A stretch of DNA of 35,568 bases from an uncultured marine group I thaumarchaeote (GTDB lineage Archaea; Thermoproteota; Nitrososphaeria; Nitrososphaerales; Nitrosopumilaceae): the NCBI GenBank assembly GCA_902511735.1, contig CABXGK010000006.1, positions 1 to 35,568 of the forward strand, given 5' to 3'. A program made the position numbers and the translations under genes. Below, one piece after another: positions 14,700 through 17,038 of this stretch. The first letter of the stretch is position 1, and each line of letters opens with the position of its first letter. The notes under the pieces were generated by a model that was given only the letters and a program-made list of their open reading frames with translations, did not search any database and was not told the DNA's origin.

Positions 14700-15179
14700 T
14701 TAGATTCTTGGTGTGAAACTAAGTCTGCCTTTTGCAGATAATACTACGATTGAAGAAATTGCAACAACAAGTACTAGGGATGCAATTGTACCAAATTCTG
14801 GAACGACTGCACCATCAGCAACCTCTACTTCAACAGTTGATTTGTTTATTGAGGCAGAACCCTGTTGTGCGGTAATTGAATACACGCCATCTTGTTTCCA
14901 CATTGGACCACCAACACCTATTGTTGAAGTGAATTCACCATCAGAATCAGGGTTAATTTGATCAATAGAAACAACGTTTCCGTTTGGTGCAAGTACCATG
15001 ATTGTTACAGGAGTGTTACTTGATGTAGCATGTCCTGTGATGGTGATTGTTGTTGAACCCTCAACTGCATCTGCTGCAATTGACAAGCCATCTCCGCCAT
15101 GCTCTGCAAATGCCATAGGCATTGCTGCAACTAGCATCAAGCTTGCCAAAATTGTCAGTGTGTGTTTAGAGTTAATCAC
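14700..15179 (-). CDS. PEFG-CTERM surface protein
   Basis: Signal peptide MINSKHTLTILASLMLVAAMPMAFA; C-terminal VVPEFGTIASLVLVVAISSIVVLSAKGRLSF. Confidence 0.88.
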   Translation of the reverse strand: MINSKHTLTILASLMLVAAMPMAFAEHGGDGLSIAADAVEGSTTITITGHATSSNTPVTIMVLAPNGNVVSIDQINPDSDGEFTSTIGVGGPMWKQDGVYSITAQQGSASINKSTVEVEVADGAVVPEFGTIASLVLVVAISSIVVLSAKGRLSFTPRI

Positions 15180-15237
15180 TGGTATAACAACAAAATTTGT
15201 TGCATATAAACAATCTGATTCATAGAAACAGCATTTT

Positions 15238-15513
15238 TTATTTATTTTCTTTTAAAAATATACGAATTGCCTCTAAATGAGAACAGTTGGCTTTCAATCC
15301 TTTTCCATGATGAAATTTATAGAAATTTTTGAATCCTGGACATTCGCAGGAATCAGATGTTACAAAATAAGACTTTGAAGGATCGCTTGAAGATTTTACT
15401 TGAAAAAGATCATCTTCAATTTTTACAACCCCACCATTTTCGACAAGTTTTTCTGCTTTTTTGATTGTGTTAGAACTCAAATTATTGGTTCCAAGCCATG
15501 TAGCCACCTTCAA
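15238..15513 (-). CDS. SWIM zinc-finger protein
   Basis: CECPGFKNFYKFHHGKGLKANCSH: CxC-xn-CxH SWIM motif. Start overlaps the rhodanese gene and may lie downstream. Confidence 0.75.
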   Translation of the reverse strand: MKVATWLGTNNLSSNTIKKAEKLVENGGVVKIEDDLFQVKSSSDPSKSYFVTSDSCECPGFKNFYKFHHGKGLKANCSHLEAIRIFLKENK

Positions 15514-15775
15514 GATTTATTGCAGAAAATCCAGCTTTTACTAGTTCGTCAGCTGCAATATTTCCACGATAACCAGATGCACAGTAAACACAAATTTTCT
15601 TATCCTTTAATTCATCAATTTGTCCTTTCTTTGCATTTCGTATAACCAATCCCAAAGGCATGTTTTGTGAGTTTTCTATAGCACCATTTACAAATTCATC
15701 TGATTCTCTAACATCAATAATAACAAATTTGTCTTGTTCTTGTTTTAATTGGTCTTTTGTAATAGATTCTGCCAT
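15482..15775 (-). CDS. rhodanese-like domain protein
   Basis: FVIIDVRESDEF, active-site loop VYCASGYRG, INLEGGYMAW. Confidence 0.9.
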   Translation of the reverse strand: MAESITKDQLKQEQDKFVIIDVRESDEFVNGAIENSQNMPLGLVIRNAKKGQIDELKDKKICVYCASGYRGNIAADELVKAGFSAINLEGGYMAWNQ

Positions 15776-15826
15776 ATTATACTACAATTGTATTGACATA
15801 TATTTTTTAATTTTATCATATATGAC

Positions 15827-16213
15827 ATGAATGAAAAAGAACTACAGAAAATTGTAGAAGAATATAATACAAATTTTAAGATTGTAATCGAAAATAATTC
15901 ATTTTCAATAGATGAAATAAAAATTTCTCAGACAGATAATCCAATAACAGAACCTACAACAAGAGGAGGAGTATATTTTGCAGAAATGAAAGAATGGAAA
16001 GCAGAAGTCACAATTTATGATACAACAATATCAAAATATCTTTCAAAAGCAATGCTTGGGCCTAACAAAGAATTTCTAGACATAATCTTGTATGCAACCA
16101 TCAAAGATGGACAAAAAATGTCACTTGTAACAAATCTCAAAAATAGTATGCAAAATGCATCAAAAATTATTCTTTATTTAACATTGAAAGATGCAATTTT
16201 AGAATCACAGTAA
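15827..16213 (+). CDS. hypothetical protein
   Basis: ORF with ATG, coding-like composition, convergent to the J-domain gene. Confidence 0.55.
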   Translation: MNEKELQKIVEEYNTNFKIVIENNSFSIDEIKISQTDNPITEPTTRGGVYFAEMKEWKAEVTIYDTTISKYLSKAMLGPNKEFLDIILYATIKDGQKMSLVTNLKNSMQNASKIILYLTLKDAILESQ

Positions 16214-17038
16214 TTTACAAAATTTATCATATTCTGCTTTTAATTTTTTATCTGATAAAACTTCGTATGCTTTATTGATTTGAGCCATTTTTTCTTCAGA
16301 AGAATCTTTGCTTCTATCAGGATGATATTGTTTTGCTAGTTTTCTATATTGGTTTTTAATTTCAGATTCTGAAGAATCGTTTGTCAATTCCAATATCAAA
16401 TAATAATTTGGTAATGAATTATCATTATACATTTCACGAAATTCTTTTGCTTCAGTACTTGGTTTACGAGAACCGAAGATTTCTTCTTCAGACCATTCAG
16501 AATGATATTTTTCATAATCACGGTCTTTTTTTGAATCTAATTTTGCAGTGTCATAACTGGTCTTTTTTCTCAATATGATATGTCTTGCAAGATAAATGAA
16601 AATTCCTGCGATGATTATTATTGCAATTGCAAATGTAAGATAAAGATCTTCAGGACTGACATAATAGTCAGATACAGCAGAGGGAGGATTTACCTGTGCG
16701 CCAGAATCATAGAAAAATTTTACAGACAATGAAGTGTCACCAGATTCGGCCATCACTAAATAATTACCACTTTTTTGCCATCCACCAATTCCTGCAATTA
16801 TCAAAGTAGAAAATTTATTTTGATCATCAGGGTTAAGGCTTTCATTCCAGACATTATTTCCATCTGGATCTTTTATAGAAATGAAAACAGAATCAAAAGC
16901 AGTAGACCCCCATACTGAAATAAAATCGGATTTTTCATATAATGCCTTATCAATATTCAAAGTTAATTCATCACCAAATGCAGTTGAAACAGGAATAATC
17001 AAAACAAGAAATAATATTCCAAAATAGATTTTTTTCAT
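16205..17038 (-). CDS. single-pass membrane J-domain protein (extracytoplasmic beta domain, TM, cytoplasmic C-terminal J domain)
   Basis: Signal MKKIYFGILFLVLIIPVSTAFG; TM YLTFAIAIIIIAGIFIYLA; NYYLILELTNDSSESEIKNQYRKLAKQYHPDRSK with HPD motif. Confidence 0.87.
   Translation of the reverse strand: MKKIYFGILFLVLIIPVSTAFGDELTLNIDKALYEKSDFISVWGSTAFDSVFISIKDPDGNNVWNESLNPDDQNKFSTLIIAGIGGWQKSGNYLVMAESGDTSLSVKFFYDSGAQVNPPSAVSDYYVSPEDLYLTFAIAIIIIAGIFIYLARHIILRKKTSYDTAKLDSKKDRDYEKYHSEWSEEEIFGSRKPSTEAKEFREMYNDNSLPNYYLILELTNDSSESEIKNQYRKLAKQYHPDRSKDSSEEKMAQINKAYEVLSDKKLKAEYDKFCKLL

Follow-up and report, generated by a model that had tools for sequence, protein, structure and literature searches.

J-domain proteins with transmembrane (TM) segments are already known. 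In mitochondria, Pam18/Tim14 comprises a single TM segment followed by a J domain and recruits Hsp70 on the inner side of the membrane, where it acts at the TIM23 import motor; it carries no Ig-like domain. In Escherichia coli, DjlA consists of a short periplasmic part, one TM segment, and a cytoplasmic J domain, and acts on membrane signalling proteins in a DnaK-dependent manner, so a TM-J protein with little outside the membrane can work through DnaK at the membrane (PMC11709261). Proteins in which the J domain is combined with varied extra domains are defined as class C (PMC8215388). The thaumarchaeal DnaK system and the protein DnaJ-Fer of the same organisms have already been described (PMC3564930), and in their S-layers Ig-like domains form arrays above a pseudoperiplasm (PMC11153153). 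Little has been described of how DnaK is directed to the membrane in archaea that possess it.

The DNA analyzed here, referred to as the window, is a stretch of 35,568 nucleotides; it is contig C6 of a genome at 57% completeness (757,834 bases), whose nearest named relatives are Candidatus Nitrosopelagicus and marine group I thaumarchaeotes. Two minus-strand open reading frames, both verified at the coordinates in Table 1, lie approximately 1 kb apart in an order conserved in Nitrosopelagicus and encode a PEFG-CTERM surface protein and a J-domain protein. The J-domain protein matches PF00226 with 73.9 bits (curated cut-off 27.8; E 1e-20), with the HPD motif present; the J domain is located at the C-terminus (residues 211-271 of 277) and is the sole Pfam match, as in class C, whose members have neither the G/F region nor the C-terminal substrate domains seen in DnaJ/CbpA. 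The predicted signal peptide displays a hydropathy of 2.25 over residues 4-22, and in orthologs it ends in VFA/D or TFA/D (small-x-small). Literature searches on archaeal membrane J proteins and on Nitrosopelagicus DnaJ turned up DnaJ-Fer but no account of the present membrane family or of any J protein bearing an Ig/MG-like ectodomain, most subscription journals lying outside their coverage. A 2020 survey of prokaryotic J proteins by Barriot and colleagues, cited in PMC8215388, may list this architecture. Three genes separate the PEFG and J genes: a convergent 128-aa gene, a rhodanese gene, and a gene for a small CxC...CxH protein. The last two share 32 bases, and in Nitrosopelagicus they stay in place next to the PEFG gene. 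In one locus (L044), the match to the CxC...CxH protein is in two pieces, perhaps owing to a frameshift.

Table 1. Positions in the window of the two genes, their predicted parts, and the neighboring genes.
Feature	Position	Strand	Basis or remark
PEFG-CTERM surface protein, 159 aa	14700..15179	-	TIGR04296; syntenic orthologs in Nitrosopelagicus
Predicted Ig/MG2-like β domain of PEFG protein, residues 31-121	14817..15089	-	AlphaFold; weak MG2 match; A3 profile E 4e-26 (profile includes this protein's own sequence)
PEFG-CTERM C-terminal signal, residues 125-153	14721..14807	-	TIGR04296
Rhodanese gene	15238-15513		between PEFG and J genes
Small protein, CxC...CxH motif (zinc-ligand-like/SWIM-like, by eye)	15482-15775		between PEFG and J genes
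Convergent neighbor, 128 aa	15827..16213	+	shares 9 bases with the J gene at its 3' end
Single-pass membrane J-domain protein, 277 aa (signal peptide, MG2-like ectodomain, TM, juxtamembrane segment, J domain; layout predicted)	16205..17038	-	ORF; PF00226; orthologs; AlphaFold
Predicted signal peptide, residues 1-22 (KK n-region, hydrophobic core, AFG/D end)	16973..17038	-	sequence; hydropathy
Predicted extracellular Ig/MG2-like β domain, residues 23-113	16700..16972	-	AlphaFold; Foldseek; pN/pS
Near-invariant extracellular linker AQVNPPSAVSDYYV, residues 114-127, right behind FFYDSG	16658..16699	-	conservation
Predicted TM helix, residues 129-151	16586..16654	-	hydropathy 2.6; AlphaFold helix 129-155
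Predicted cytoplasmic juxtamembrane segment, residues 152-205 (RHIILRKK..YD....SKK.RDYEKYHSEW)	16424..16585	-	invariant columns in ortholog alignment A1
J domain, residues 211-271, HPD at 239-241	16226..16408	-	PF00226

According to the original prediction, the two proteins carry the same extracytoplasmic β domain, and this claim holds. BLASTP aligns them with 33/102 identities (E 5e-11, as a single comparison) over a shared extracellular domain of approximately 90 aa. With signal peptides removed, the local alignment score is 97, and none of 5000 shuffles reaches it (mean 27.1, sd 5.1, maximum 61), thereby ruling out chance similarity; hhalign of the two ortholog alignments yields a probability of 96.7% (E 4e-10). 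AlphaFold models built from separate alignments present corresponding strands in the same order, at residues 39-45, 51-56, 62-68, 75-81, 91-99, and 102-111 of the J protein and 44-51, 58-63, 69-75, 82-88, 98-106, and 113-121 of the PEFG protein. The J ectodomain is modeled with eight strands at a pLDDT of about 82-92 across residues 31-110, and the PEFG ectodomain at 68-85 by block; at a pTM of 0.36, the relative placement of domains in the J protein is not readable from the model. Foldseek searches of the PDB matched both models to complement C3, the MG domain of alpha-2-macroglobulin (2p9r), and DUF3244 (4g5a), with target TM-scores to 2p9r of 0.71-0.74 for the J protein and 0.62-0.63 for the PEFG protein, these being comparisons of predicted models. 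Sequence families hint only weakly at an Ig-like fold (MG2, DUF3244, FlgD_ig, I-set): the PEFG protein matches Pfam MG2 (PF01835) with 15.4 bits, below the gathering cut-off of 32.8, the J ectodomain does not match MG2, and a Pfam scan of 16 domain members left the first without a match and gave only weak Ig-like matches among the others. A PDB sequence search with the PEFG ectodomain yielded no significant match; hence, the fold assignment rests on structure prediction. As modeled, both ectodomains are Ig/MG2-like β sandwiches.

The β domain is a common surface module of Nitrosopumilaceae rather than a peculiarity of the two window genes. Its profile matches seven times in the window's own incomplete genome, nine times in a complete relative (G096), and 6-20 times in four other Nitrosopumilaceae, with zero matches in two genomes from other families. 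The domain occurs, as read from ORF sequences, in PEFG-CTERM proteins, in proteins with a C[LF]IATAA[FY]G motif before a C-terminal TM segment (CFI-type), in a TPR-like protein, in cupredoxin-like fusions, and at the C-terminus of type II proteins of approximately 230 aa. These type II membrane proteins (approximately 220-270 aa), in which a helical N terminus on the cytoplasmic side leads through one TM segment to a C-terminal MG2-like domain, were seen in many Nitrosopumilaceae genera (loci L083-L099, L105, L107, L109, and L110) and not in the complete Nitrosopelagicus G096; the one scanned against Pfam matched no family above cut-off. In a tree of 71 domains based on a short alignment of 93 columns, which leaves deeper forks unresolved, all 16 domains from J proteins cluster together (86/93) and attach to the type II domains (90/91) rather than to the PEFG group. 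The close spacing of the two window genes on the same strand and their conserved synteny would suit an origin of the J ectodomain as a recent copy of the neighboring PEFG domain through local duplication and fusion. This origin is nevertheless extremely improbable: forcing the J and window-type PEFG domains together in the 93-column alignment costs 50.7 log-likelihood units and is rejected (p-AU 0.0002), and the J ectodomain is 35-41% identical to type II domains against about 32% to PEFG domains. The similarity of the ectodomains is thus homology of a family-wide kind with no special tie between these two genes.

The PEFG protein matches TIGR04296 with 43.5 bits (cut-off 25). Its C-terminus was called sortable in the original prediction, and the protein may be processed by a cognate sortase. 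An Exosortase_EpsH match above cut-off (30.3 bits) is present in the complete relative G096, but no exosortase-family gene was found in the window's own genome, at 57% completeness, or in genomes of two other genera. In an ALOHA MAG (L052:7715-8611), the frame of the PEFG protein is 299 aa long and places two β domains ahead of the PEFG signal.

The J protein is predicted to hold its ectodomain outside the cell, to cross the membrane once, and to expose its J domain inside, because positive charges lie on the inner side of the TM segment and the signal peptide has a small-x-small end. Close orthologs have no K/R in the 15 residues ahead of the TM segment (net charge about -1) and 4-6 K/R in the 15 residues that follow it (net +2 to +5); the window protein has -1 outside and +4 inside. 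The contrast is weaker in a divergent long-form clade. The reverse arrangement, with an extracellular J domain that would never meet DnaK, is disfavored by this charge pattern and by the cleavable type of signal peptide, and the HPD motif is retained in 107/107 family sequences (redundancy included); nothing was found in favor of this arrangement, and we consider it very improbable. The layout of outside domain, TM segment, and internal J domain put forward in the original prediction agrees with these predicted features. For the window copy together with ten close relatives, pN/pS is 0.16 for the ectodomain, 0.08 for the J domain, and 0.03 for the linker; these values are rough, given the strong divergence at synonymous sites and the shortness of the linker. 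The ectodomain is under purifying selection. The linker AQVNPPSAVSDYYV averages 97% identity among 11 close relatives, and a FFYD[SA]...[VI]NP pattern is present in 61/62 long-form sequences (redundancy included). Such near-invariance suggests that the outside part does something specific beyond passive anchoring.

Conservation of the TM-J architecture was traced in related genomes. Searches with the whole protein returned full-length matches only within the genus Nitrosopelagicus, where long forms of 262-309 aa occur in 24/24 genomes with a match. In other Nitrosopumilaceae genera, open frames of 167-243 aa match from about residue 124 onward; in these short forms, a signal peptide and a brief extracellular stub precede the same TM and juxtamembrane segments and the J domain. 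The complete layout is conserved within Nitrosopelagicus, whereas in most of the family the TM-J core is the conserved unit and the β domain is absent. A profile of the TM and juxtamembrane segments (A4) matched 172/250 Nitrosopumilaceae genomes, including 103/131 good ones and 17/22 genera, nearly always in single copy, and found nothing convincing outside Nitrosopumilaceae (scan of 25 genomes from other families plus three g9 genomes and one g5 genome). The TM-J core is thus a single-copy family seen only in Nitrosopumilaceae within the genomes examined, and the β domain on it is confined to Nitrosopelagicus among everything examined. Long and short forms share about 45-59% identity over TM-J, and the convergent 128-aa neighbor, which matches no family in Pfam or NCBIfam scans, accompanies both and remains adjacent in most short-form loci compared (L057-L061 and L063); hence, they are the same gene. 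One long GC-rich open frame (G247, L137) is a short form by eye and was left out of the long forms. A degenerate second TM-J copy with internal stops lies near a contig end in one genome (L138, G220:C10:249073-249417), the intact copy being on another contig, and one assembly holds two copies (G324:C58 and G324:C50), perhaps through strain mixture.

A single gain of the domain within Nitrosopelagicus is the simplest explanation by distribution, and the domain tree agrees. In the TM-J tree, the two long-form clades fall apart, although a single origin is not rejected (p 0.15), and two gains from the same domain pool are possible. Alternatively, the domain could be ancestral in the TM-J family and have been lost outside Nitrosopelagicus. 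Both domain and family are widespread in Nitrosopumilaceae, and the separated clades would call for two changes; however, this history requires losses in many other genera as opposed to one or two gains, the short-form stubs bear no domain remnant by eye, and the J copies form one group close to type II domains. Ancestral presence followed by loss is consequently rather improbable.

The genome encodes DnaK on another contig (G000:C12), adjoining canonical DnaJ, as the original prediction had asked to be checked. We consider it reasonably probable that the 277-aa protein works as a class C co-chaperone anchored in the membrane, that it draws DnaK to the inner membrane face, and that the envelope-contact domain of Nitrosopelagicus is an add-on. 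The signal peptide would place the N-terminal part outside, and one TM helix would span the membrane. As HPD is intact and the genome encodes DnaK, the cytoplasmic J domain would stimulate DnaK, and tethering through the TM helix would bring it to the inner side of the cytoplasmic membrane, where membrane or exported proteins are the likely clients. The near-invariant juxtamembrane segment is probably a docking site for a fixed partner. Since most of the TM-J family lacks the ectodomain, DnaK recruitment cannot generally depend on it, and membrane recruitment of DnaK is the likely core function; the β domain between signal peptide and TM segment would be an addition to that core. The near-invariant linker weighs against this reading, as the strongest indication of a specific task on the outside. 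In Nitrosopelagicus, the Ig/MG2-like domain of approximately 90 aa probably contacts an envelope partner (S-layer or pseudoperiplasm) or self-associates, thereby positioning the co-chaperone, and contact with envelope proteins would be natural for such a domain because the S-layers are themselves Ig-like arrays over a pseudoperiplasm (PMC11153153). DnaK binding, localization, and clients of family members are inferred here from sequence.

The surface sensing suggested in the original prediction would instead make the protein a transmembrane sensor, in which the ectodomain reads a surface state or ligand and alters J activity, and DnaK is recruited on demand. The conservation of the ectodomain and its linker, together with retention of the layout across Nitrosopelagicus, would fit such a role. 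However, orthologs in other genera manage without the domain, the domain type is generic and probably a structural Ig/MG-like module of many surface proteins, and in the Pfam scan of the J protein neither a known ligand-binding or signalling domain nor a relay resembling HAMP or PAS came up. Sensing found no support, and a sensor is quite unlikely. A one-component chaperone switch, in which an Ig/MG2-like domain on the S-layer side would read the envelope state via the FFYDSG-QVNPPSAV linker and one TM helix would gate the DnaK-directing J domain, is distinctly unlikely. Membrane recruitment of DnaK could also take the specific form of an export co-chaperone, with the J domain bringing DnaK to the Sec translocon to serve surface-protein precursors and the outside domain holding or templating emerging β-sandwich proteins. 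The intact HPD on a membrane J domain and the many exported proteins bearing the same β domain are consistent with this role, and the near-invariant basic juxtamembrane segment would suit a fixed docking partner. Conversely, sec gene linkage was not noticed in a general comparison of the loci, and there is no sign that the domain binds its homologs; this more specific form is fairly unlikely.

For the study of envelope protein quality control in major ocean ammonia oxidizers, a TM-J protein that is single-copy and specific to their family is a concrete starting point. In the Nitrosopelagicus form, a surface module would be joined to a cytoplasmic chaperone recruiter within a small, streamlined genome, and the long and short forms constitute a natural experiment, with or without the ectodomain, on the role of the outside part.

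Among known systems, Pam18/Tim14 resembles the J protein in its TM-plus-J layout, a likeness drawn from description rather than alignment. The archaeal protein is predicted to share with DjlA a short extracytoplasmic N-terminal part (as in the archaeal short form), a single TM segment, a cytoplasmic C-terminal J domain, and DnaK as partner. By contrast, the archaeal protein lacks a TerB-like domain between TM segment and J domain (Pfam, E up to 1), and its best match to the DjlA NCBIfam model is 30.8 bits against a cut-off of 162. Furthermore, the archaeal family has a cleavable-type signal peptide and a juxtamembrane segment specific to Nitrosopumilaceae, and the Nitrosopelagicus form adds an outside β domain of approximately 90 aa; the sequence relation to DjlA evident here is confined to the J domain. 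DnaJ-Fer, a separate J-domain fusion of the same organisms, combines a J domain with a ferredoxin domain and has no TM segment (PMC3564930); a copy with J and 4Fe-4S ferredoxin domains is encoded in the window's own genome (G000:C4:31040-31210, L003). MG2/Ig-like domains (2p9r, complement C3, the S-layer protein 7ptp, and DUF3244 4g5a) display the same Foldseek fold as both ectodomains, although at 11-21% identity and below Pfam cut-offs, and each ectodomain is a single domain and no macroglobulin. Finally, within the PEFG-CTERM proteins of Nitrososphaerota (TIGR04296), the window member has its β domain in common with the J protein, whereas the J protein carries no PEFG signal and continues instead through a TM segment into a predicted cytoplasmic J domain.
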